DNA of 64,000 nt from Polycyclovorans sp. (GTDB taxonomy: Bacteria > Pseudomonadota > Gammaproteobacteria > Nevskiales > Nevskiaceae), in contig PAKU01000006.1 in assembly GCA_002706265.1 (NCBI GenBank), positions 62,001-126,000 on the forward strand. The letters are read 5' to 3'. The position numbers and the translations under genes are program-made. Within the stretch, counting starts at the first letter, position 1; the number at the start of each line of letters is the position of its first letter. Below, piece after piece: positions 10,100-27,564 of this stretch. Below the pieces are notes generated by a model. It was given only the letters and a program-made list of their open reading frames with translations. It had not been told where the DNA came from and did no database searches.

Positions 10100-10894
10100 T
10101 CAGCCTTCTTCCGGGAATTGCATGCCCATGATGCGGTAGCCGGCGTCGACGTAGATGATCTCGCCGGTGATGCCGGCGGCGAGGTCGGAGCAGAGGAAGG
10201 CGGCGGTGTTGCCGACATCTTCGATGGTGACGTTGCGTTTCAGCGGGCTGGCGGTCGCGGCGCTGGCCAGCATGTTGCGGAACCCGCTGATGCCCGCGGC
10301 CGCAAGAGTCTTGATCGGCCCGGCCGAAATGCCGTTGACGCGAATGCCCTCGCTCCCCAGGTCGGCGGCCATGAATCGCACATTGGCCTCAAGGCTGGCC
10401 TTGGCCGGCCCCATGACGTTGTACATGGGCACGGCCCGCACGGCGCCCAGATAGGTGAGGGTGAGCAGGGCCGCATTGCGCCCCTGCATCAGTGGCCGCG
10501 CCGCCTTGCCGAGCGCCGCAAACGAATAGGCCGAGATATCGTGCGAGATCGCAAAGCCTTCACGCGTCACCGCGTCAAGGTAACGCCCCTGCAACTGCTC
10601 GCGCGGCGCGAAGCCGATGGCATGGATGACGATATCGATCCCGCCCCACTGCTGCTCGACTTCCTGCATGACGTTGGCAATCTGTGCGTCATCGGTGACA
10701 TCCAGCGGCAGCACCAGCTTGCTGTCGTTGCAGCGGGCGGCGACGTCTTCCACCCGGCCTTTCAACCGATCACCCTGATAGGTGAACGCCAGCTCGGCAC
10801 CCTCCCGGGCAAAGGCTTCGGCAATGCCCACGGCGATGGATCGATCACTGGCCACACCGGTGATCAGGGCTTTTTTACCGTTGAGGAAACCCAT
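10100..10894 (-). CDS. fabI: Enoyl-[acyl-carrier-protein] reductase (NADH)
   Basis: FabI reduces trans-2-enoyl-ACP with NADH in the last step of each fatty acid elongation cycle. The 264-residue protein matches E. coli FabI along its length: GVASDRSIA near the N-terminus binds NADH, and catalytic Tyr158 and Lys165 lie in [10 protein letters not shown] (E. coli Tyr156/Lys163). The glycine equivalent to E. coli Gly93 (triclosan site) is kept at Gly94. An AAGGAG lies 7 bases before the ATG, confirming the start. It faces the symporter gene tail-to-tail and is downstream of the motor operon on the same strand. Confidence 0.96.
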
Positions 10895-10950: not shown

Positions 10951-11988
10951 TTATAACAGGACGATGGGGTAGTTGCGCACCGGGAACGCCGGAACGGCCT
11001 TGGCCCCGAAATTGATCAACTGGATGCGGGTCATCAGTTGGCGATCCACTTCGGCATCGCCCAATTCGCTGCTGACCAGTTGCAGGTTACTGATGCTGCC
11101 ATCGGGATTGATGACGAAGCTGATCACGATCTTGCCGCGCAGGTCGGGATTGGTGCGAAGCGCGCGGTTGACGATGGCCGTGATGGCGCCCTTGTTGCGG
11201 TCAAACACCAGCTGGATCTCTTGCAGGCTGCGGCCTGACACCACGGCGTCCCCGCTTTCACCCGGGCGCGTCCGGTCTTCGCCAAAGCCCACCGGGCTTT
11301 CCAGCTGCGTGGTGTTGCGCGAGCCCAGGCCGGTGCCGGCGTTGGTGCGGCGCGTCTGGCCGGCGCCTGGCGAGGTGATGCCGCTGCTGCGGGTCTGGGC
11401 CGAATCGGCCACCCGGTTGGGGTCTGCCGCGGTGCCTGACCCCGCGCCGCTGCCGCCTCGCGAGCCCACCACGGTCGATGAGGTGAGGGGTTGCGAGGGG
11501 TCGATGCCGGTCAAGGTGCTGTCACGCAGGGGTGACAGTTGGTCGAATGCCGCTGCCGCCTCCTGGGCACGACGGCGGGCGTCTTCCTGGGCGCGGGCCT
11601 CGGCCTGGCGCTGGGCGATGGCCGGGTCCACGGTCGGCACCGGTTTCGGTGCGCGGGTGGGCTGCGGGGCCACCACTTCTTTCACCGGTTCCGGTTCGGG
11701 TGCCGGCTCGGCCTCGGGTTCGATCGGATCGGGCTCATCTTTTTCAGCGGGCGCGGCTTCTTCGGTCTTTTCGGCGACCGGCACGTCTTCGCGCTCGCTG
11801 ATCAGTTCGACATAGCGCTCTCCGGCCAGGGTGCCGCCGCCAGGCGTCAGCCCAACCAGGTTGATGAACGGCAGAATCAGCATGAAGGCCACGACCGGCA
11901 GGGCCAGGGCGAGCAGCAGACGCCGGAATTTGCGGTCCGCGTCTTCGGCCAGTTCCCAGCTTTGCCAGCGGATCACCTCAGCGCTCAT
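10951..11988 (-). CDS. AgmX/PglI C-terminal domain (TonB-like) transducer
   Basis: The 345-residue protein has a short cytoplasmic N-terminus, one membrane helix at about residues 23-46, a long Pro/Glu/Ala-rich linker (about 70-130), a Gly/Ser/Thr-rich stretch, and a C-terminal domain of about 85 residues ([14 protein letters not shown]) of the TonB-like AgmX/PglI type. It is last of a nine-gene minus-strand operon; its ATG overlaps the second ExbD stop by 4 bases. By analogy with TonB, TolA and Myxococcus AgmX (GltJ), it should carry force from the inner-membrane motor across the periplasm. Its outer-membrane partner is unknown. Confidence 0.8.
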
Positions 11989-12500
11989 TCCGACGCCCCC
12001 GGTGACTGGGTGATCACGGCCAGCGAGATGCGCGAGAAGTTGGCGTCGGTGCAGGTGGCCATCACCCGGCGAATCAGCTGAAACGGAATGTCCTTGTCGG
12101 CCATGATGTTGACTTCGCCGCGCGACACCTGACCGGGTTCGCCGCCTTCAACCGGCTGCAGCGGGGTGGTCAGCAGGGCGGTCTTCAGGGGCTCAATCAC
12201 GGCCCCCGCACTGTTGGCCGCTTCCTCCAGCCGCATGATGACGCGACCGTTCAACTGCAGGTCTTCGCGTGACAGCATCAGCAGGATGTGTTCAGACGGC
12301 TTTTCGGTGCTCACCGAGCTGGGCAGCGTCATGGCCTTGGCGTTGGGCAGCACTTCAATCTGAGCGCTGTTCACCATCAGGAAGAACACCAGAATGGTGA
12401 AGATGTCCATCAGCGACACCAGGTTCAATCCCGGTACTCGGCGCGTGTTGTGCGCCCGGCGCGCGACACGCTGCGAGCGTATCGAAGCACTGCGGATCAT
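11985..12500 (-). CDS. ExbD/TolR-type stator subunit with the conserved Asp
   Basis: This 171-residue protein has a basic N-terminus, one membrane helix (about residues 25-46) and a periplasmic domain, as in ExbD, TolR and AglQ/AglS. The helix keeps the proton-carrying aspartate (Asp32 in GLNLVSLMDIFTILVFF). The periplasmic part is longer than in E. coli ExbD and holds an insert near residues 90-120. It overlaps its neighbours by 4 bases on each side (ATGA). Together with the second ExbD and the TolQ homologue it should make one proton-driven motor. Confidence 0.88.
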   Translation of the reverse strand: MIRSASIRSQRVARRAHNTRRVPGLNLVSLMDIFTILVFFLMVNSAQIEVLPNAKAMTLPSSVSTEKPSEHILLMLSREDLQLNGRVIMRLEEAANSAGAVIEPLKTALLTTPLQPVEGGEPGQVSRGEVNIMADKDIPFQLIRRVMATCTDANFSRISLAVITQSPGASE

Positions 12501-12991
12501 GGCGCCTGCTCCAGGGGCGTGGCTTCACCGACCGAAATGCGCGGGAACATGTCGACGAGAATCCCGTCGCGTGCGGCAGGCAGGTAGTGCACCGCGTCCA
12601 TTGCAGCGATGACGGTCTGGTAAGGCACACCGGGTTCGATCATCAGGGTGATGCTGTCTTCACCGGGCGCTGCGTTCTTGATTTCGGCCAAGGCGGTGTT
12701 GACCGCGTCGAAGGGGAAGCGGTCGCCAATGCGGGGCCAGTTACGGACCGACCCTGACTTGTCTTGGAGCGTCAGGGTCTCTTCACGCACGAACAGCGTC
12801 AGACTGCGACGCTCCTCGTCCAGCGGCTGGGATTCCGAGTTGTCGGGCAGGTTGAGCTGCTTCACCGCCATCTGGGTGAAGACAGCGGTGATCAGCAGAA
12901 AGGGGACCAACACGACCATCAAATTCATGAAGGCCGTGATGTTGAGCTCTTCTGCGTCGACCCGACGGGCCTTTCGCAAGCGTCCAATCAT
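12497..12991 (-). CDS. ExbD/TolR-type stator subunit lacking the conserved Asp
   Basis: This 164-residue protein has the same layout as the neighbouring ExbD (basic N-terminus, helix at about residues 16-38, periplasmic domain). The position of the essential aspartate is Asn23 (LNITAFMNLMVVLVPFLL), so on its own it should not carry protons as E. coli ExbD Asp25 or TolR Asp23 do. It follows the TolQ gene directly (ATG one base before the TAA of that gene on this strand) and overlaps the next exbD by 4 bases. A two-ExbD set recalls AglQ and AglS of the Myxococcus gliding motor. Confidence 0.88.
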   Translation of the reverse strand: MIGRLRKARRVDAEELNITAFMNLMVVLVPFLLITAVFTQMAVKQLNLPDNSESQPLDEERRSLTLFVREETLTLQDKSGSVRNWPRIGDRFPFDAVNTALAEIKNAAPGEDSITLMIEPGVPYQTVIAAMDAVHYLPAARDGILVDMFPRISVGEATPLEQAP

Positions 12992-13624
12992 TTAGCTTTT
13001 GAACCCGAAACTGTTCAGGAATTTGATCGCGGCCATTTCGACGTTCTCGACCAGCTCATTGGCATTGGACTGCAGCACGGCGTGCAACAGCAGCAGCGGA
13101 ATGGCCACCATCAGGCCGAAGGCGGTGGTGTTCATGGCCACTGAAATCGACGCCGAGAGCAGGTCAGCCTTTTCAGCCGGGTTGACGTTGGCCACGGCGG
13201 TGAAGCCCTTGATCAGACCGATGATGGTGCCCAGCAGCCCCATCAGCGTCGCGATGTTGGCGAAGGTGGCGAGGTAGTGGGTGCGGCGTTCCAGCAGCGG
13301 CGTCACTTCCATCAGTGATTCTTCCATCGCCATTTCGACGTCGGCACGGCTGGACGCCGACTTGGAGCGGGCCAGGCCATAGCCCAGAACGCGGCCAATG
13401 GCGGTTTCAGAATGGGTGGCGACGCGCTCGGCGCCTTCGTAGTCGCCCTGGTTGAGCATGGGCAGCAACTGCTCCCACAGGCGGCGGTTCTCGCGGCGTG
13501 CGCGGCGCAGATACAGGAATCGCTCCAGTGCAATGGCCATGCCGATGACCATGATGATGAGGAGCGGGAACATGAAGGGCCCGCCCTGCTGGAAGAAGTT
13601 GATGATGGTGGCGAATACGTCCAT
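12992..13624 (-). CDS. MotA/TolQ/ExbB proton channel protein
   Basis: The 210-residue protein has three membrane helices (about residues 15-38, 115-140 and 160-185) with the family signature in the second (ANIATLMGLLGTIIGLIKGF) and MNTTAFGLMVAIPLLLLH in the third. It is the multimeric channel partner of the two ExbD proteins encoded next. I chose the ATG at 13624 (MDVFATIINFF) because it fits the family N-terminus; an in-frame ATG at 13657 would add 11 residues. Neither has a clear ribosome site. Confidence 0.9.
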   Translation of the reverse strand: MDVFATIINFFQQGGPFMFPLLIIMVIGMAIALERFLYLRRARRENRRLWEQLLPMLNQGDYEGAERVATHSETAIGRVLGYGLARSKSASSRADVEMAMEESLMEVTPLLERRTHYLATFANIATLMGLLGTIIGLIKGFTAVANVNPAEKADLLSASISVAMNTTAFGLMVAIPLLLLHAVLQSNANELVENVEMAAIKFLNSFGFKS

Positions 13625-13682
13625 GAAAATTGACTCTCGGGGCTGTTCTGGATGCATGACGGGCGGTCCGTCACGTTGGATT

Positions 13683-14084
13683 TCAAGGGGTGTTGAGGGG
13701 GACGTCGGGCGTGACCTGGTTACGTTCCGCCAAAGCGCCGGTCAGCGCGCGATGGTACTTGAGCTCTCGCAAAAAAACCGGGCGGTCGATGGGCAGCAGG
13801 CTGGCCTTCACGAGTCTGGCGGGGCGATCCATGTCGGCGGCGGCACTGCTGTCACGCCACGGCATGATGTACAGGCCGATCGGCGATTCGCGATCGCCGA
13901 TGATCACCGTCCCTGAACCTTCGCCTTCGGCAGCGGCGGGCGGGGCGGGCGGCGCCGGTTGCTCGGCCCCGACATTGGAGGTCTGCACCGCCGGGCCCTC
14001 GTCTTGGGCAGATGCCAGACCGGTGATGCCGATCAGCAGGGCGCCCAGCACCGCCGCACGCAGGGGTCGATGAATGTGCGTCAT
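13683..14084 (-). CDS. Small exported protein of the motor operon, unassigned
   Basis: This 133-residue protein starts with a signal peptide (cleavage likely after ASA near residue 26), then a Pro/Ala-rich spacer and a compact region with SGTVIIGDRESPIGLYIMPW. I do not recognise a family. Its ATG overlaps the stop of the TPR lipoprotein upstream (ATGA), and the TolQ homologue follows, so it is translated with the motor and probably acts in the periplasm with it. A role as a small periplasmic adaptor is inference. Confidence 0.7.
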   Translation of the reverse strand: MTHIHRPLRAAVLGALLIGITGLASAQDEGPAVQTSNVGAEQPAPPAPPAAAEGEGSGTVIIGDRESPIGLYIMPWRDSSAAADMDRPARLVKASLLPIDRPVFLRELKYHRALTGALAERNQVTPDVPLNTP

Positions 14085-14731
14085 GGGGTCGGCCCCTCGT
14101 TCTGGCCAGCGGTGTCGGGCGCGGCCTTGCGTTCCAGCTCGGCAATCCAGACCAGGACGCGAAGATCCTCGCTGCCGGTGAGCGCCAGATAGCGGCGGTA
14201 GTGGGTCAGCGCGCCCTCGACATCATTGAGCGGCTGGTCGAGCACCAGGCCAAGGTTGAGGTGCGCTTCGGCCAGCTGATCGTCCAGCGCCAGGGCCTTC
14301 AGATAGGCGTCGCGTGCGCCCGCCGGGTTGTTGAGCTGGCGTTCGGTGCGTCCCAGCTCATGCCAGGCCACGGCGTTCTTGGGATTGATCTGCACCGCCT
14401 GTTGCAGCGCCGCTCTGGCCTGCGGAAGACGCTTGGCGCGCAGATGCAGAATGCCCAGGTTGGTGGGCGGGCCGGAAACCTCTGGAGCCTCCTGCGTCAG
14501 TGCCTCGAAGGCGGCCTGGGCGTCATCGAACTGATTGCGCTTCATCAGATCGAGCGCTTCGAGATAGCGCGCTTCCACCGATTGACCGGCGTCGCCGATC
14601 ACGCTTTCTTTGGGCGCGTCCGGGTCGTCGCCTGCATCCGGGCGTGCGCCTGGAGCGGCGCAGCCGGCCAGCACCAGCGCCGACATCAGCGCCGCCAGTG
14701 CGGCCAGGTGGGGCTTACTGGAAGGGTTCAT
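14081..14731 (-). CDS. TPR outer-membrane lipoprotein
   Basis: The 216-residue protein begins with a lipoprotein signal ending in the lipobox LAGC (Cys24), followed by an Asp/Pro-rich spacer and at least three tetratricopeptide repeats (for example NPKNAVAWHELGRTERQLNNP and the next unit with DQLAEAHLNLGLVLDQ). The residue after the lipidated Cys is Ala, so outer-membrane sorting is expected. It overlaps both neighbours (17 bases with the large TPR gene upstream, 4 with the small exported protein downstream). It probably scaffolds the envelope complex driven by the motor. Confidence 0.85.
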   Translation of the reverse strand: MNPSSKPHLAALAALMSALVLAGCAAPGARPDAGDDPDAPKESVIGDAGQSVEARYLEALDLMKRNQFDDAQAAFEALTQEAPEVSGPPTNLGILHLRAKRLPQARAALQQAVQINPKNAVAWHELGRTERQLNNPAGARDAYLKALALDDQLAEAHLNLGLVLDQPLNDVEGALTHYRRYLALTGSEDLRVLVWIAELERKAAPDTAGQNEGPTP

Positions 14732-17552
14732 AGATCGAAATCCCCCGTTCGTTGCGGCCGTAGATGGCCGGCGCGATCTTCACCAGTTCGCGGTAGCTGT
14801 TGCGGATGGCATCGTCATAAATGCCCTGGGGAATGCGCTTGAGATTGGTTTCAAAGGTTTCGATGGCGCGCTCCTCGAACGGGAAGGCCTGCTCCTCCAG
14901 CAGCAATTCGTACTGTTCCAGCGCCAGCGCGTCCAGATTGCCGGGTCGCTCGGAGGCGTTCAACGCCGCTGCGAAGTTGAGATAGACCACGCCGAGCTGC
15001 TGCGTGGCCTCGGTGGTGACTTCGGTGAAGCCGAAGGCCGCGGCCTGGTTGAGCATGGCGACGGTTTCTTCCATGGCCTTGCGGCGTGCCGTCAATGACT
15101 CATTCAAGGGCAGGGTGATGCGCATGGCAGCGGTTTTCTGGGCCAGCGCCCGACCCAAAGCCAGCGATGACTCGGCGGCCAGCAGGCGCGTCGCGTCGGT
15201 ACGTTCGGCACCGGCGCTGGCGTCAGCCGCCACGATGTCCCTCAGCCAACGGCTGCGGCGCGCCGGGTCACTGCCGGCCATCTCGACCAGACGGCTGCGC
15301 GCCACCATTGCGCGATCGACCGGCCGGGGGTAGGCGGTGACATAGCGTTCATAGGCTTGGCCGGCGGCGGCGGGATCACGACCGGACGCGTCGAACAGCG
15401 TGGCCGCCAGCCAGGCCGACTCCTGCCGAATGTCGGGCGCTTCGCCGGTACGGTCGGCAACGCGGGCGTAGACCGTCGCCGCCTCGTAGGGCTTTTCGTC
15501 GCGCTGATAGGCGAGGGCGAGCATCTTGTCGGCGTCGGCGATGCGCGGGCTGTCGGGATGATTGCTGCGGTAGGCCTCAAGCACCTGGGCGGTTTGTGGC
15601 CAGTCTTCGAGTTCAAACAGGGTCGAGGCGCCATCGAAATCGGCCGTGGCGACGATGCTGGCGGTGGGTGCGATGGTTTTGACCCGCAGGAAGTGGAACA
15701 CCGCTTGTCGCAGCTCACCGCCTTCGCGGGCAATTTCGCCCTGTTTGTAGACGCTGGCCGCCAGCTTCTCGACCGTTTCCGGCCGTTCTTCAGCGCCCTT
15801 GGACATGAGGTTCAGCGATGCGACAAAGCCCTTCTCGGCCTCCGGGTACTGCTTGAGTGCGTAGTGGCTGTCGGCGGCGACCGCCCACGCACTGCCCATC
15901 AAGTTTTCGTCGGCCTTCCCCGGGTGGGTGATGACGCGCTGCGCAACCTCGATGGCCTGGTCGTAGCGCTGCAACTCGTACAGGTCTTCGGCCGCCCGGG
16001 TGGTGACCCGCAGCGCTTCGCCGTGGTTGGGAAAGGCATCGGCGAAGCGCAGCGCGCCGGTGATGGCGAGTTCCAGGGCGGCGGGCCGGGCGGCGGCAGG
16101 CTGCGTTTCGGCATGCCGCTGATAGGCCAGCACGGCGGCATGACCGGCTTCGGCCGAGCGTTCGTGCGCGGGGTAGTCGTAGGCGGTGCGTTCGTACTCG
16201 CGCGCGGCGTTGAGCGGCTCGCCGCCATTGAACAGCGATTCGCCCAGCAGGAAGTTCATCTCGGCGACCTTCTCGTCGCGGGGATAGACCTCGATGATGC
16301 GCCGGTAGTAGCCGGCCGCCGTCATGAAATCGGCCGTCTTGGCGCCCGGCTGGGTGGTGTCGTCGGCGGGACGCTGGCCACTGGCGTAAAAGTGCGCGGA
16401 CAGATCGCCCAGGTGCCCTCGAAGCGCGGTCAGCACCTCCGGGGTGGGGGCGCGACCGGCCCAGTAGGGCGCGTCGGGGTCGTAGGTTTCGGCGTAGCGC
16501 TGCTTCTCGCGGACCACGAGGTCACTGAATCCACCCGCCTCGTGCGCGGCAATGACGCGCTCCTGGAAGTCGGGTGCGAGCGGATGTTGACGATGACGCT
16601 CGATGAAGGCGGCGCTGGCATCGGCCGCGTCGGTGTAACGCTTCCGCTCCAGCAACTGGTCGCCAAGCGCGGCATAGAGCAACGGAAAGAATCGCGGATC
16701 TCCCTGGCGCGCGAAATATTCATTGGCCGCGTCACCGCCGCCGAGCTGGGTGAAGGCCAGCCCGATGACGCGTATTGAATCGCGGGTGTAGTCGACCTTG
16801 CGGCTGTCGAGGCCGGCCAGCGCCGTTTCGAGGTCATAGGCTTCGCCGGGCGGCAGTTCGCGTTCCAGAATTTCGATGAACACGTCCACGGCGGCGTCAT
16901 AGCGCGACTGGCGATACCGGGACCAGCCCAGCTTGTACTGGGCAACGTCGAAGAACGGGGTGGCATCGGCCAGCGCCATGACCTCGGCGTACTCGGCCTC
17001 GGCCTCGACGTAGCGGGATTCGAAAAACAGCAGCTCAGCACGCCGAAAACGGGCATCGCCCAGCAGGTCGCTCTCGGGGTGCCTGGCCGTCAGCTTGGCA
17101 AGTACCTCAATGGCCTGCGGCGTGTTGCCCAGATTCTGATGGGCGCGCGCCAACTGATAGTAGATGCGGTCGTTGTCAGGCGAGTCCGGATTTTCTTTCA
17201 GCAGCTTTTCGTACAGCGCAATCGATTCGGCCATGGTTTCGGCCGCCGCCTCGGTGGCGCCCTCGGCATCGGCCATGCGCACCTGAAGGTCGGCAAGGCG
17301 ACGCTCGGATTCCTCGCGCGTCAGCCGATCAGACTCCAGTTTCAGCAACTCGCGGTAGTTGTCGATGGCGCGCTGCGGGTCGCTGGCAATCGGCTCTGAC
17401 TTGATGATGGGCAATACATCGGGGTCGGGTGCGGTTTGACCCTTCATCACGTCACCCACGCTGGGCCCGGGATCGATGCCCCGGGTGGCGCAGCCCGTCA
17501 GCGCCAGGGCCGCAAGCAGCGCAGAGGTGTGGTTCAGCCAGCGGGTTGCCAT
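14715..17552 (-). CDS. Large TPR lipoprotein of the motor operon
   Basis: This 945-residue protein has a lipobox LTGC (Cys21) and then many tetratricopeptide-like helical repeats spread over most of its length (for example DNDRIYYQLARAHQNLGNTP and ARFRRAELLFFESRYVEAEA). Starting at 17552 places the signal peptide at the N-terminus and leaves 4 bases after the preceding stop; an ATG at 17570 is also possible. Large TPR proteins of this kind occur in clusters with TolQ/ExbD and AgmX-type proteins, where they are thought to build the periplasmic part of the machine. No enzyme motif is seen. Confidence 0.85.
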   Translation of the reverse strand: MATRWLNHTSALLAALALTGCATRGIDPGPSVGDVMKGQTAPDPDVLPIIKSEPIASDPQRAIDNYRELLKLESDRLTREESERRLADLQVRMADAEGATEAAAETMAESIALYEKLLKENPDSPDNDRIYYQLARAHQNLGNTPQAIEVLAKLTARHPESDLLGDARFRRAELLFFESRYVEAEAEYAEVMALADATPFFDVAQYKLGWSRYRQSRYDAAVDVFIEILERELPPGEAYDLETALAGLDSRKVDYTRDSIRVIGLAFTQLGGGDAANEYFARQGDPRFFPLLYAALGDQLLERKRYTDAADASAAFIERHRQHPLAPDFQERVIAAHEAGGFSDLVVREKQRYAETYDPDAPYWAGRAPTPEVLTALRGHLGDLSAHFYASGQRPADDTTQPGAKTADFMTAAGYYRRIIEVYPRDEKVAEMNFLLGESLFNGGEPLNAAREYERTAYDYPAHERSAEAGHAAVLAYQRHAETQPAAARPAALELAITGALRFADAFPNHGEALRVTTRAAEDLYELQRYDQAIEVAQRVITHPGKADENLMGSAWAVAADSHYALKQYPEAEKGFVASLNLMSKGAEERPETVEKLAASVYKQGEIAREGGELRQAVFHFLRVKTIAPTASIVATADFDGASTLFELEDWPQTAQVLEAYRSNHPDSPRIADADKMLALAYQRDEKPYEAATVYARVADRTGEAPDIRQESAWLAATLFDASGRDPAAAGQAYERYVTAYPRPVDRAMVARSRLVEMAGSDPARRSRWLRDIVAADASAGAERTDATRLLAAESSLALGRALAQKTAAMRITLPLNESLTARRKAMEETVAMLNQAAAFGFTEVTTEATQQLGVVYLNFAAALNASERPGNLDALALEQYELLLEEQAFPFEERAIETFETNLKRIPQGIYDDAIRNSYRELVKIAPAIYGRNERGISIYEPFQ

Positions 17553-17556
17553 GTGC

Positions 17557-19509
17557 TCAGCGCGCCTCATCGTTTGATTCGGCTGCCGGGGCCGGGCTCT
17601 TGCGTTTGCGGTCGTACAGGCGGGCCAGCGCGAAACGGGCCTCGACCAGGTATTTCTCAATGGTGAGCTGCTGCTCGGCGAGTGCGTTCTTGGCAATGTC
17701 GTTGAGCACCAGCGTCTGTTCGGCCACGGCAAGTTCGAGCTGTCGTTCCAGCACGGTGGCTTCTTCGCGAAGGCGCATGGCCTGTTCATAACTGCCGTTG
17801 AATTGCGCCGGAAGCGCGGCGGGCGTCAATTTGACGGTGGCGCCCTCGGCGAAATCTGGTGGCCGCTGATAGCGGCCGGGGGGCGCGAGGTCGGGGTCGG
17901 CCTTCAGGCGCAGCACAATCTTCGTCCTGGGGGGCTTGCGATCCAGCGTCGCAGCGGCGAACAGCAGCTCAGGGGCCACGGGTTCGCGGATGTTGCGGCG
18001 GTACAGTTCGAGTACGCCGTCAAGGCGATCTTTCCAGCCGGTAACGGTGCGGCTGAGCAGGCGCAGGTCGCGATAATGTTTCAAGCCTTCCTGAAAGCGG
18101 TGGGAGGCCAGCAGCGACTGCAGGTAATAGGTTTCAGGCACGTCGGGCAGGTCGCGCAATTCCCAATCACGACTGGACTCGTCATTGGCGTCGCGCAGCA
18201 CCAGGGTGTTGAGCATCACGCCACTTTCGATGGACTGCTGGGCGGCACGTTGGCGCTGGCGGTTGAGCTCCAGCAGGTCGATCGCCTTCTCGTAGTATTC
18301 GAGTGCCTGGGTGTGGGCGCCGATGCGGTCCAGCGTGTAGGGAATGGCCAGCGAGGCCTCTTGCACGGCCGGGTCCATGGGGTCGCGGCCCATGAGCTGG
18401 GTCCATGCGGCAAGCGCCCGCTGCAGCGACTCTTCTTCGTCTTCGCCCATTTTGGCGCGGGAATAGATGGCAAAGCCCGAGCGGCGAAAAACCCCGTCTT
18501 CGATGTAGCCGGGGCGCAGGACGCCGCCCAGGCTCATCATGGTGTTGTAGGGGTCGGTTTCGTCATCGAGGGTCGAGGTGCGAATCTGGCGATCGCCCCG
18601 CGGTTGCAGCTCGGCCCAACCCAGGCCCAGCAGCGCGCGGCTGGATGAAGGGCCCTCGGCGCGGATGCGTTGCAGCGTCGCCTTGGCGGTGCCGCCCTGT
18701 TCGTTCTGCAGGAAATTCCAGCCCAGCACCAGATTGGCGCGGTCTCGAATCGCATACTCCTCCTCGGTCCGGGCCGTCATGCGGCCAACGCGGTCGAGGG
18801 TGTCGCGGCCTTCCAGAGCGCGACCGTCGTTGATCAGCGCCAGCCCGAGGTTGTATTGCACGAAGGGATCGTGGCGCCCGCCGTCATCGACCTCGGACAG
18901 CGCCTTGAGCATCTCGATGGCGTCGCCGTACTGGCCCTTGGCCAGCAGGACCCGGGTGACCTGATACTTCCAGGCATTGAGCTCGTCTTCCGGAAGGCTG
19001 TCGCGCAGCGTGTTCAGGGTGCGCAGTGCCGAATCGTAGCGCCCGCGGCGGAAGTCCTGGTCGGCCACCAGCATCTGGGAACGGACGTACTGCATGCTGT
19101 CATTGCGGCCCACGCCGGCCAGCCGGTAAAGCTGTCGGGCCTCAAGGATCGAGAAGCCCAGATAGGCGTCGCCCATGAGCCACTGAAAGTCCCTGGGCAT
19201 GTCGTCGATCGGGGTGCGGCCTGCAGCGCCGTTCAGCTCGATTGCCGCGCTCAGGTAGCGCTTTTCGGCCATCAGGGCCTTGGCGGTCTGCACCCGTACG
19301 TCTTGATCGCTGCCGGCCTTGTAGAAGCCCGGCGAATTGGTGCTCTCGATCAGCACGGGGCCATCGCGTTCGGTCTGTACGGCGCGCTCCGAATCGCTGT
19401 ACGGCAGCTGGGGGGGCACGCCGGAAACGGTTTGCGCCAACGCAGGCGCGGCCCATGTGCAGACCAGCAGCGGTGCCAGCCACGGTGCAGTGGATCGGAA
19501 GTTCATCAT
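17557..19509 (-). CDS. Large periplasmic TPR protein of the motor operon
   Basis: The 650-residue protein has a cleavable signal peptide (WLAPLLVCTWAAPALAQ), scattered TPR-like repeats from about residue 70 to 420 (LGLGWAELQPRGDRQI is one), and a C-terminal coiled coil rich in Glu/Ala/Leu (about 575-640). No lipobox is present, so it should be soluble in the periplasm. The ATG at 19509 overlaps the upstream stop (ATGATG), which implies coupled translation. It is second in the operon. Confidence 0.83.
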   Translation of the reverse strand: MMNFRSTAPWLAPLLVCTWAAPALAQTVSGVPPQLPYSDSERAVQTERDGPVLIESTNSPGFYKAGSDQDVRVQTAKALMAEKRYLSAAIELNGAAGRTPIDDMPRDFQWLMGDAYLGFSILEARQLYRLAGVGRNDSMQYVRSQMLVADQDFRRGRYDSALRTLNTLRDSLPEDELNAWKYQVTRVLLAKGQYGDAIEMLKALSEVDDGGRHDPFVQYNLGLALINDGRALEGRDTLDRVGRMTARTEEEYAIRDRANLVLGWNFLQNEQGGTAKATLQRIRAEGPSSSRALLGLGWAELQPRGDRQIRTSTLDDETDPYNTMMSLGGVLRPGYIEDGVFRRSGFAIYSRAKMGEDEEESLQRALAAWTQLMGRDPMDPAVQEASLAIPYTLDRIGAHTQALEYYEKAIDLLELNRQRQRAAQQSIESGVMLNTLVLRDANDESSRDWELRDLPDVPETYYLQSLLASHRFQEGLKHYRDLRLLSRTVTGWKDRLDGVLELYRRNIREPVAPELLFAAATLDRKPPRTKIVLRLKADPDLAPPGRYQRPPDFAEGATVKLTPAALPAQFNGSYEQAMRLREEATVLERQLELAVAEQTLVLNDIAKNALAEQQLTIEKYLVEARFALARLYDRKRKSPAPAAESNDEAR

Positions 19510-20105
19510 GGTTGCTCGCGCAGGACCTGCGCATCGAGGCCGCGCCGGCTGCCGCCGGTGCGGATGAAGGCACTCCGCTCCGCCTGGCCGCCGGGCTTGG
19601 TCCACCGCGCCCTGAAAACGACCGAAGTGGTCTTGGGCAGCTTTTCAAACTCGACGGCGTGTTCCATCACCACAGGCTCGGCACCCTCCTTGGCGCTTGC
19701 GTATTGGCCGGTCATCCGCAGATGAACGCGATGTGGGCCCGGGTCAAGATTGGCGAGCAACAAGCGCTTCAAGCCTTCGCTGCGCTGCAGGGCGAGGGCT
19801 TGCGTCTCTTCGATCTTCACCGTGACGACCGGGCGCTCATCGATCTGCACCGAGGCTTCAGACACCAGCAGGTCATCAAGCTCAACCCCAAGGTAGACCG
19901 CGGTGCGGGTCAGGCGGGGGTAACGCACTTCGTCTTCGACGGCCTGCGCCGCGGCGTTGAAGCGCAGTGTTTCGAGGCGTAATTGTTCAGCCACCTGATC
20001 GCGCTTGAGCAGCTCGGGTTCGGTAGGCGCGGCGTGCTGGGCGAAGGCCGTGCACCAGCAAAGCAACGTCGGGGCAAGTAACGCCCATCGCGCGGGTCGA
20101 TTCAT
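19506..20105 (-). CDS. First gene of the motor operon, exported protein of unknown family
   Basis: This 199-residue protein starts with a signal peptide (MNRPARWALLAPTLLCWCTAFAQ). The mature part begins with a helical Glu/Leu-rich stretch and continues as a region of alternating hydrophobic residues (VQIDERPVVTVKIEE, HRVHLRMTGQYA) that suggests a beta-sandwich, perhaps with a PEGA-like carboxypeptidase-regulatory fold. I do not recognise the family. A GTG 24 bases upstream is an alternative start but would put charged residues before the signal. It leads the nine-gene operon; no clear promoter is visible upstream. Confidence 0.72.
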   Translation of the reverse strand: MNRPARWALLAPTLLCWCTAFAQHAAPTEPELLKRDQVAEQLRLETLRFNAAAQAVEDEVRYPRLTRTAVYLGVELDDLLVSEASVQIDERPVVTVKIEETQALALQRSEGLKRLLLANLDPGPHRVHLRMTGQYASAKEGAEPVVMEHAVEFEKLPKTTSVVFRARWTKPGGQAERSAFIRTGGSRRGLDAQVLREQP

Positions 20106-20408: not shown

Positions 20409-20488
<80 letters not shown>

Positions 20489-24623: not shown

Positions 24624-25071
24624 GTGGAAGAGGCTCGTGGATCAGTCGGGCCGACAGGATACGCAACCCCCGCGCCCACGACAGCGCGCGCTGATCAGCA
24701 GGATGGCGGTCGGCTGGGTATGCTCAGCCCCTTTCAAGACTCTGGCCCCACGTAATGAAAAGGGTCCGCTTCATGTGGGTCACCGCCACACGGGCCCTGG
24801 CGTTCAGTGGCGCCCCGCGCAGGCGCTCGGCCAAGCTGGAGCTCGACCCCTTCGTGACCGACGAGACCTTGATAAGGCCTGTTTGCGATGATGGCCCACG
24901 AAGAGCGACGCATTCGTCAGGATCCGGCGGCCCGAGGCACCGAGATCATGAAGCGCGTGTTCGGCGCACGGTCAGGAAACTGAAGGCATTCTTAACGGCG
25001 TGCCCCTTGAGGTACACGCTGCCACCCGTTAACGAGGTGGTGTAAAAACCAAAAATGACCATTTTTATCCC
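24624..25071. other. Intergenic region with no convincing gene
   Basis: This 448-base gap separates two divergent genes. Short reading frames exist (for example 24755-25045 and 24888-24983, plus strand), but they lack a ribosome site and family resemblance. The short one (AARGTEIMKRVFGA) faintly recalls the N-terminus of carboxymuconolactone decarboxylase-like proteins and could be a gene remnant. The 3' end is AT-richer and holds an inverted repeat next to the next gene. Confidence 0.4.
25051..25066. repeat. AT-rich inverted repeat before the SH3-domain gene
   Basis: AAAAATG and CATTTTT are exact inverted repeats separated by two bases and end 5 bases before the ATG at 25072, where a ribosome site would be. 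It may be an operator or a leader hairpin affecting initiation. Confidence 0.45.
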
Positions 25072-25665
25072 ATGCCCATGATGATTCGTTTTGCCGCCGT
25101 CGCCGCGTTGTCGCTGTCGGTTGTGTTTGCCGCCGCTGCCGAAGATCTTTTTGTTTCTGACGTGATCAACCTGTCGATCCGTGAGCGACCGGCCAACGAT
25201 GCCGGCGTGATCGGGCAGGTCTCCAGCGGCGAATCGGTGGAGGTGCTGGAGTCGCTGGGGCCGCAGAGCTTCACCCGCATTCGCGACGCCAATGGCCGCG
25301 AAGGGTGGGTGACCTCGCGCTACCTGACCCCAGAGCCCGCGGCGCGCGTTCAACTGGAGAAAGCCGAGGCTGCACTGGCGCAGTCCAACCGGGCCTTGAG
25401 CGCCTTGCAGGTCGAGTTCGATGCCGCGCAGGCGCGCCTGGTCGATGCGGCGTCGGCCCTGGAACTGGCGGACGAAAACGAGCAGTTGAAAAGCGTCATC
25501 ACCGAACTTCAGGACAGCGAGCAGCGCTTGCGGGAGAAGGGCAAGGCCGATCGCGAACGGCGCGCCCTGATGCTGACCGGTGCGGGCCTGGTGGGCGGCG
25601 GCGTCGTGCTGGGGCTGCTGTTGCCCGCGCTGGGCCGCAGAAAGCAGCGCTACGGCGGACTTTGA
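25072..25665 (+). CDS. TIGR04211-type SH3 domain protein (YgiM-like)
   Basis: The 197-residue protein has a signal peptide (residues 1-24), a bacterial SH3 domain (VINLSIRERPAND to GREGWVTSRYL, about 25-85), a coiled coil (about 90-165) and a C-terminal membrane helix (LTGAGLVGGGVVLGLLLPAL) followed by a basic tail. This is the YgiM/TIGR04211 layout: a periplasmic SH3 domain held on the inner membrane. The function is not established. The first of three close Met codons is used; starts at the third or fourth residue are also possible. Confidence 0.85.
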   Translation: MPMMIRFAAVAALSLSVVFAAAAEDLFVSDVINLSIRERPANDAGVIGQVSSGESVEVLESLGPQSFTRIRDANGREGWVTSRYLTPEPAARVQLEKAEAALAQSNRALSALQVEFDAAQARLVDAASALELADENEQLKSVITELQDSEQRLREKGKADRERRALMLTGAGLVGGGVVLGLLLPALGRRKQRYGGL

Positions 25666-25755
25666 CCGCCGTGATTGCAGACGCATTCTGCGGCGGGCCC
25701 CGGCTGCGGGCTTAACATGGCGGTCCGTTTTCATTGAATCGCCCAAGCCAACGCC

Positions 25756-27564
25756 ATGTCGATTGTGTATTCGATTCGCCCAGCCGACCCCCGTGGCCAC
25801 TGGTTCAGCGTTGAACTGACCTTTGACGCGGCCGCCGGCGCCACCTTGAGCCTGCCCAGCTGGCTGCGCGGCAGTTATCGCATCCGCGATTTCGCCAAGC
25901 ATGTGAGCGATGTCGCGGTGACCGATGCCGACGGCGCCGCGGTGCCGTGGCGGCGCATCGACAAGCGCCGCCTGGTAATCGACGGCCGTGGCGCGCCGGT
26001 GACGGTTGCCTATCGCGTGTATGCCTTCGATCCGTCGGTGCGCAAGGCCTTTCTCGGCACCGATCGTGGGTTTTTCAACCCCAGTTCGCTGTGCTACCGC
26101 GTGGATGCTGCGGCGCAGATGCCGGTCGAACTGCGCCTGATCGCCCCGGATGATGCGGACTGCGCCGACTGGAAGGTCGCCACGTCCTTGCAGCCGCTGG
26201 CCATTGATGCCCGCGGCTTCGGGCGCTACCGAGCCGACGATTACGAAGACCTGATCGATCAGCCGGTGGAAATGGGGCGCTTCGAGCGCGTTGACTTCGA
26301 GGTCAACGGCATGCCGCACGCGCTGGTGCTGTCCGGGCATGGCAGCGTCGACACCGACCGGGTCGTGTCCGACCTGAAGCGCATCTGCGCGGTCGAGCAT
26401 GCCCTGTTCGACAACGCGACGCCGCTGGACCGCTACCTGTTCCTGACCCAGGTCACCGCCGGCGGATACGGCGGTCTGGAGCATCGCAATTCCACCGCCC
26501 TGGTCTGCTCGCGCGATGATCTGCCCCGCCCCGGGGCGTCTGGCCTTGACGAGGGCTATCGCAACTTTCTGGGCCTGTGCGCGCACGAGTACTTTCACCT
26601 GTGGAACGTCAAGCGGCTGGTGCCGCAGGCTTTTGCCGAAAGTGATCTGGGCGAAGAGGCCTACACCCGCGATCTTTGGCACTACGAGGGCGTCACCAGC
26701 TATTACGACGACCTGTTCCTGCTGCGTGCCGGCGTGGTGGAGGCGGCCGATTACCTGGACCTGATCGCCCGACAGGCCACGCGCGTCTGGCGCACGCCGG
26801 GGCGGCATCGTCACAGCCTGGCCGAGTCGAGTTTCGAGGCCTGGACCAAGTTCTATCAATCCGACGAATCGACACCCAACCTTACCGTCAGCTACTACGG
26901 CAAGGGCGCGGTCATGGCCTTGGGGGTGGACCTGCGTCTGCGGGTGCTCGGCACCCACCTCGATGAGGCAATGAAGCGGTTGTGGCAGCAGTTCGGCGCG
27001 GCGCAGCAGCCGGTGCCCGAAGGCGGGTTGGCGCAGGTGATCATGGCCCTGGCCCACGAATGCGGCGGCGAGCAGGGGGCCACGGCCCTGCGCAACTACT
27101 TTGACCGTGCCCTGCACGGCACCGAAGACCTGCCCTTGGCGCAAGACCTGGCGGTGTTCGGGGTCGAGGCCGAGTTGCGCGTCAGCCACGGCGCCACAGA
27201 CCGCGGCGGCCGCAAAACGGGCCGGCCCGAGCCCAATTTCATCGGCGTGCGCGGCAAGCCGGTCGACGGTGGCTTCCAGGTCACCGGTGTGGTGGCGGAC
27301 GGCCCGGCCGAGCGCGCCGACCTTGCCGTGGGTGATCGCCTGATCGCGATCGACGGCTGGCAGATCAAGCCGGCCAAGCTGGCCGCGCAATGGGCGGCCC
27401 TGGCGCCGGGCGAGCCGGTGACGGTGCATCGATTCCGCGATGAAAAGCTGATCAGCTCGGTCCTCACGACCCAGGCGCCCGTGGCCGACACCTGGACGTT
27501 CTCGCTGGTCAGCGACCCCGCGCCGGACGTGGCGGCCCGGCGCAAGGCCTGGCTGGGCGTCTGA
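25756..27564 (+). CDS. M61-family metallopeptidase with PDZ domain
   Basis: The 602-residue protein is an M61 (glycyl aminopeptidase) peptidase: an N-terminal beta domain, a catalytic domain with zinc motif HEYFHLWNVKR at about residue 277, the downstream Glu expected in WHYEGVTSYYDD, and a C-terminal PDZ domain (about 480-560; VVADGPAERADLAVGDRLIAI). There is no signal peptide, so it is probably cytoplasmic. plsY starts 2 bases after its stop, pointing to one transcript with plsY, birA and coaX. Confidence 0.93.
   Translation: MSIVYSIRPADPRGHWFSVELTFDAAAGATLSLPSWLRGSYRIRDFAKHVSDVAVTDADGAAVPWRRIDKRRLVIDGRGAPVTVAYRVYAFDPSVRKAFLGTDRGFFNPSSLCYRVDAAAQMPVELRLIAPDDADCADWKVATSLQPLAIDARGFGRYRADDYEDLIDQPVEMGRFERVDFEVNGMPHALVLSGHGSVDTDRVVSDLKRICAVEHALFDNATPLDRYLFLTQVTAGGYGGLEHRNSTALVCSRDDLPRPGASGLDEGYRNFLGLCAHEYFHLWNVKRLVPQAFAESDLGEEAYTRDLWHYEGVTSYYDDLFLLRAGVVEAADYLDLIARQATRVWRTPGRHRHSLAESSFEAWTKFYQSDESTPNLTVSYYGKGAVMALGVDLRLRVLGTHLDEAMKRLWQQFGAAQQPVPEGGLAQVIMALAHECGGEQGATALRNYFDRALHGTEDLPLAQDLAVFGVEAELRVSHGATDRGGRKTGRPEPNFIGVRGKPVDGGFQVTGVVADGPAERADLAVGDRLIAIDGWQIKPAKLAAQWAALAPGEPVTVHRFRDEKLISSVLTTQAPVADTWTFSLVSDPAPDVAARRKAWLGV

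Follow-up and report, generated by a model that had tools for sequence, protein, structure and literature searches.

An Agl-Glt-type operon of nine genes in Polycyclovorans with asparagine at the proton-site position of its AglQ-like motor subunit

A nine-gene operon of Polycyclovorans sp. almost certainly belongs to the Agl-Glt core complex, and it probably encodes a proton-driven, trans-envelope force machine of the Agl-Glt type. Luciano et al. (2011, PMC3169522) described the core complex (gltC, gltD, gltE, and gltG with aglR, aglQ, and aglS) from Gammaproteobacteria, Geobacter, and a single betaproteobacterium, and Wartel et al. (2013, PMC3858216) later put it forward as a basal transport machine. 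The system itself is therefore already known, and the view of it as under-described, taken in a preliminary description of this DNA, does not hold. What is new is a nine-gene definition, a probable myxobacterial homologue of the first gene, and, above all, a motor variant in which asparagine stands in place of aspartate in the AglQ-like subunit.

We analyzed a stretch of 64,000 nucleotides, referred to here as the window. By open reading frame (ORF) calls, nine intact minus-strand genes, A to I, form a tight operon that runs from position 20105 down to 10951. Five of the eight junctions overlap (by 4, 17, 4, 4, and 4 bases), F and G abut, and gaps of 4 and 58 bases separate B from C and E from F, in keeping with the mostly overlapping minus-strand genes first reported. 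The operon lies between a tRNA-Pro gene (20412 to 20488) and fabI (10100 to 10894). Because its GC content (0.64 to 0.66) matches that of the window as a whole and I is followed by a codirectional fabI in ten related loci, the operon looks resident and mainly vertically inherited within the order; horizontal acquisition was considered and set aside on these same two grounds. A search for a sigma-70-type promoter found none, terminator-like sites were at chance level, and a plasmid search found nothing. Elsewhere in the window, an 827-amino-acid minus-strand ORF (24946 to 27429) with no NCBIfam match overlaps a 602-amino-acid plus-strand ORF, and one of the two is probably spurious.

The motor is encoded by F, G, and H, all on the minus strand. 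F (12992 to 13624; 210 amino acids) is an AglR-like proton-channel subunit of the MotA/TolQ/ExbB type (Pfam MotA_ExbB, 5.6e-27). G (12497 to 12991; 164 amino acids) is an AglQ-like and H (11985 to 12500; 171 amino acids) an AglS-like ExbD subunit (Pfam ExbD, 1e-14 and 7e-16, respectively), so the one TolQ homologue and two ExbD homologues recognized earlier are borne out. In profile comparisons, F matched AglR at 4e-51 and a second myxobacterial motor at 3e-47, with other TolQ/ExbB proteins at 1e-25 or worse. The F tree placed the gammaproteobacterial F proteins, AglR, and the second motor on one side of a branch and TolQ and ExbB on the other (support, 96/93). The same split was recovered after the longest branches were removed (96/89), with long branches remaining among the outgroups. 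F thus lies outside both the TonB and the Tol clades, and, together with the clear GltD/NfsD homology of C, this result upholds the proposal that the set belongs with Agl-Glt rather than with TonB-ExbBD or Tol-Pal. PADLOC returned a weak ZorA similarity of F (4e-4) and no other match, and a Zorya defense system (ZorA, ZorB, and effector genes) was rejected on this evidence.

For comparison, we reached myxobacterial genomes by a scan with MglA, the query sequence of which was confirmed against the PDB. Gene identities were taken from order, length, and profile hits in draft genomes, not from M. xanthus DK1622 itself. The clusters read were gltD-gltE-gltF-gltG, the nfs cluster, aglRQS, the second motor, and a cluster directly after mglB-mglA; the aglRQS products (245, 162, and about 190 amino acids) agreed in length with Table 1 of PMC3169522. 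Against these references, the kinship of C was clear. C (14715 to 17552, minus strand; 945 amino acids) is a tetratricopeptide repeat (TPR) lipoprotein with lipobox LTGC and alanine at +2, and it aligned over about 860 columns in hhalign with GltD (5e-42), NfsD (4e-45), and the mgl-linked homologue (3e-58). With a C profile, GltD-like proteins were the best matches in all three Myxococcaceae-type genomes searched (Myxococcus sp. CA023, Hyalangium versicolor, and a Corallococcus). D (14081 to 14731, minus strand; 216 amino acids), also a TPR lipoprotein (lipobox LAGC, +2 Ala), is a GltE/NfsE homologue: its NCBIfam GltE match (8e-10) was TPR driven, and its hhalign matches to NfsE (1e-18) and GltE (7e-14) were above TPR controls. 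B (17557 to 19509, minus strand) is a 650-amino-acid exported TPR protein. Its match to NfsC (8e-8 in hhalign) was no stronger than its matches to TPR controls, the same was true of the mgl-linked counterpart, and a B profile run against whole myxobacterial genomes found no convincing GltC. Because the profile match is no better than that to other TPR proteins, we assigned B as the GltC/NfsC equivalent by position, that is, by synteny and TPR content. Pfam found TPRs in B, C, and D, which confirms the three TPR proteins, two of them lipoproteins, of the preliminary description.

The two exported proteins that had been described as lacking a family, A and E, again gave no family above the cutoff. 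The signal-peptide-like N termini of A, B, and E were judged by eye. A (19506 to 20105, minus strand; 199 amino acids) has a signal peptide followed by a helix and beta-rich part, and it precedes B at this position in most homologous operons as well. It aligned with the protein encoded directly after mglA at 96.3% hhalign probability (E value, 2e-9; 121 columns), and a homologue of A thus probably stands directly after mglA in Myxococcus and Hyalangium. E (13683 to 14084, minus strand; 133 amino acids) lies at the place of Myxococcus gltF and is conserved at its own place in most loci. Its match to a 79-amino-acid mgl-linked protein reached 76% (2e-5); that to GltF was weaker (31%, 5e-4) and was not counted as homology. 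Single-sequence structure predictions had mean pLDDT values of 46.7 for A and 43.6 for E, too poor for a fold search with those models.

The last gene, I (10951 to 11988, minus strand), encodes a GltG/NfsG-like transducer with one transmembrane helix, a Pro/Glu-rich linker, and a TonB-like C-terminal domain. It had been described as an AgmX/PglI-type TonB-like protein. The PglI-type transducer part of that reading stands (AgmX/PglI C-terminal domain, 2.7e-14), but the Myxococcus equivalent is GltG (NCBIfam, 6.4e-11), with AgmX/GltJ much lower at 2e-4; hhalign gave 9e-18 for NfsG and 3e-13 for GltG, and GltJ has been described as a myxobacterial add-on (PMC3169522). The I helix has a conserved basic stretch before it and no His/SHLS motif, by which TolA, TonB, and the vWA transducers attach to their motors (PMC12204202), and docking of I on its motor should therefore differ. 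These features bear on whether the operon is a divergent TonB-ExbBD system that energizes an outer membrane transporter in trans for uptake. The TonB-like domain of I (TIGR01352, 8e-6) would fit such a role, and receptors need not be linked. We nevertheless regard uptake as improbable: F falls outside the ExbB clade, I lacks the His/SHLS motif, the genome has several separate ExbB-ExbD loci, and neither the three TPR proteins nor the two small exported ones fit into a Ton system. The genome has one further ExbB/ExbD/ExbD-like locus (L186:7017-8538, contig C21), and the channel subunit encoded there sits on a very long branch of the tree.

All nine genes occur in the order A-B-C-D-E-F-G-H-I in 42 gammaproteobacterial loci, which we found with the window proteins as queries, first in related genomes and then in genomes sampled evenly from the class. 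Since the same order recurs in so many loci, it is not due to chance. Five further loci have eight of the nine genes, with one fused, missed, or cut off. B-like proteins were encoded by 33 of the 41 relatives and, across the class, by 60 of the 274 genomes. Among the flanks examined (25 of 63 flank families), neither a TonB-dependent receptor nor pal recurred, and the flanking genes of distant genomes had nothing obvious in common that would hint at a cargo. Some genomes carry extra copies without a motor: L213 and L216 have A to E, and three close relatives have second B-C-D-E sets without motor or transducer (L054:6320-14575, L055:3341-8883, and L056:8940-14752). In L054, a large membrane protein of 862 amino acids is encoded directly after E of the second set. 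These copies mirror the situation in Myxococcus, where Glt and Nfs use one motor (PMC3858216).

The breadth of this distribution, with retention beside fabI in related genomes, is what one would expect of a chromosomal core gene set, and C and D are predicted outer membrane lipoproteins. Both observations would suit a Tol-Pal-like envelope integrity machine that draws an outer membrane lipoprotein to the wall, for instance during division. Such a role is unlikely, as a bona fide TolQR pair is encoded elsewhere in the genome (TIGR02796, 3e-78) and the operon encodes no Pal, TolB, or OmpA-type wall-binding domain. Within its nine genes, searched with Pfam for domains, there is no TonB-dependent receptor either, as had been noted at the outset. 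Other loci of this genome provide the Ton and Tol functions. The window system shares a motor superfamily and a transducer layout with Tol-Pal and TonB-ExbBD but differs from them in its separate clade, its two unlike ExbD proteins, its added TPR proteins, the absence of Pal, TolB, and a receptor, and its transducer without the His/SHLS motif.

The closest likeness is to the core complex of Luciano et al., which also combines equivalents of gltC, gltD, gltE, gltG, aglR, aglQ, and aglS in a single operon (PMC3169522). That complex comprised seven genes plus one without a myxobacterial homologue, whereas the operon defined here has nine in conserved order, and a probable homologue of A is encoded beside mglA in Myxococcus and Hyalangium. 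In the Agl-Nfs spore coat machine, the order NfsC-NfsD-NfsE-NfsF-NfsG corresponds to B-C-D-E-I, with clear homology of NfsD to C, NfsE to D, and NfsG to I; however, Agl-Nfs relies on AglRQS, a motor borrowed from another locus, and includes NfsA, NfsB, and NfsH, which are absent from the window operon (PMC3858216). A motorless cluster in the gammaproteobacterial order A-B-C-D-E-I lies right after mglB-mglA in Myxococcus sp. CA023 (L161:115-7792), and D to I were seen at the same place in Hyalangium (L165:7011-18081). This cluster ties a copy of the core complex to polarity GTPase genes.

With homologues of GltD, GltE, GltG, and AglRQS all present, the operon could in principle encode a gliding motility machine that, like the Myxococcus one, propels the cell across surfaces, and the preliminary description had listed surface motion among the candidate jobs. 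That job finds no support, because TolQR and ExbB/ExbD motors are encoded separately in this genome, no MglA was recognizable (in a draft that is 95% complete), and weak GTPase matches were present in only 2 of 24 relatives. Moreover, according to Luciano et al., Group A Glt proteins occur only in Myxococcales and Bdellovibrionales, and a core working by itself would be unlikely to drive motility (PMC3169522). None of these proteins (GltA, B, F, H, I, J, and K) was recognized within the operon, where E is weakly like GltF. Presence in most family members and in many other families argues instead for a general role, and we consider gliding very improbable.

The motor residues set this operon apart from Myxococcus AglRQS, which it otherwise resembles in that F groups with AglR and has two ExbD-like partners. 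Because NITAFMNLM of G aligns with NLTAFIDLM of AglQ, Asn23 of G (codon AAT, 12923 to 12925, minus strand) occupies the position of the proton-site Asp28 of AglQ. The D28N exchange in AglQ paralyzes the Myxococcus motor. The conserved proton-site aspartate of H, Asp32 (codon GAC, 12405 to 12407, minus strand), is kept, so that the window motor has the aspartate in one of its two ExbD-like subunits. At the G position, 39 of 48 gammaproteobacterial loci have Asn and 9 have Asp; at the H position, all 48 have Asp, as does AglS. (L204 was excluded from these counts as a chance match to the TolQR of its own genome.) F has Val162 in place of the Glu in the matching helix motif of Myxococcus AglR and Thr166 in place of its Cys, while Thr133 and Thr167 are kept. 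The combination of G Asn, F162 Val, and F166 Thr was present in 36 loci, and Asp, Glu, and Cys were combined in AglQ/AglR and seven gammaproteobacterial loci. The exceptions were L057 (Asn/Glu/Cys), L049 (Asp/Val/Cys), L191 (Asp/Val/Asn), L048 (Asn/Ile/Thr), and L223 (Asn/Val/Ser). A literature search, with most subscription papers outside its coverage, returned no report of Asn for Asp in an AglQ-like subunit.

On the tree, the Asp-type gammaproteobacterial sequences branch close to the base, and most Asn-type sequences fall in one derived group; a single clade of all Asn rows was not rejected (p-AU, 0.08). The state of G changed only three times, which leaves too few independent pairs for a G-F correlation test. 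The coupling of G and F residues therefore reflects few events, and Asn in G is best seen as a deep, well-kept lineage trait and not as repeated coevolution. In other genera of the same family (L043 to L047, L226, and L227), the AglQ-like transmembrane helix, NIVSMIDVFAVLVFFLL, is quite different; it keeps Asp and resembles the H helix, and gene conversion or an older form is suggested.

The residue pattern suggests that the axle is asymmetric and has a single proton site. Because only H has a protonatable Asp and G has Asn, the axle may well be a G-H heterodimer, a reading to which we give an even chance. G could instead stand outside the proton path, as a structural or regulatory subunit beside an H-H homodimeric axle without asymmetry in the proton path. 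The invariance of H Asp32 and the loss of the G Asp in 39 of 48 loci would both fit this arrangement, which we think somewhat unlikely. Against it, G is retained in motor-bearing loci, and in most loci G Asn accompanies two changes in the F pore, as expected if G sits in that pore, although few evolutionary events lie behind either signal. Returning to the heterodimer, we tentatively propose, at a little under even confidence, that most gammaproteobacterial Agl-type motors are natural one-aspartate motors. In these, an obligate AglQ-AglS-type heterodimer would have its proton carried by the AglS-like partner, the AglR-like pore would be remodeled to match (Glu to Val and Cys to Thr), and the change that paralyzes Myxococcus would be the normal state.

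From the observed gene content, its conservation, the kinship with AglR, GltD, GltE, and GltG, and the residue pattern, we drew a mechanism by analogy with published Agl-Glt and Agl-Nfs work. In Myxococcus, AglR binds GltG and NfsG in two-hybrid assays, and the Agl-Nfs machine drives a movement of spore surface glycan that the uncoupler CCCP stops (PMC3858216, PMC3169522). By this analogy, F would form a pentameric proton channel in the inner membrane around a dimeric axle of G and H, and proton flow would turn or shift the axle. I, anchored beside the motor, would transmit the force through the wall, and the periplasmic TPR protein B, together with the lipoproteins C and D at the outer membrane and the small exported proteins A and E, would couple it to an outer membrane or surface cargo, which would be pulled or carried along the envelope. 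Moving surface or outer membrane material is a possible job, one that we put just below an even prospect.

As an envelope motor, the core complex is widespread, and the nine-gene definition and the mgl-linked counterpart provide better handles for finding its function. The Asn-type motor bears on the question of whether AglQ and AglS heterodimerize, since a lineage in which one partner lacks the proton site makes that question directly testable, and it also tests whether a motor of this kind can run with one proton site.
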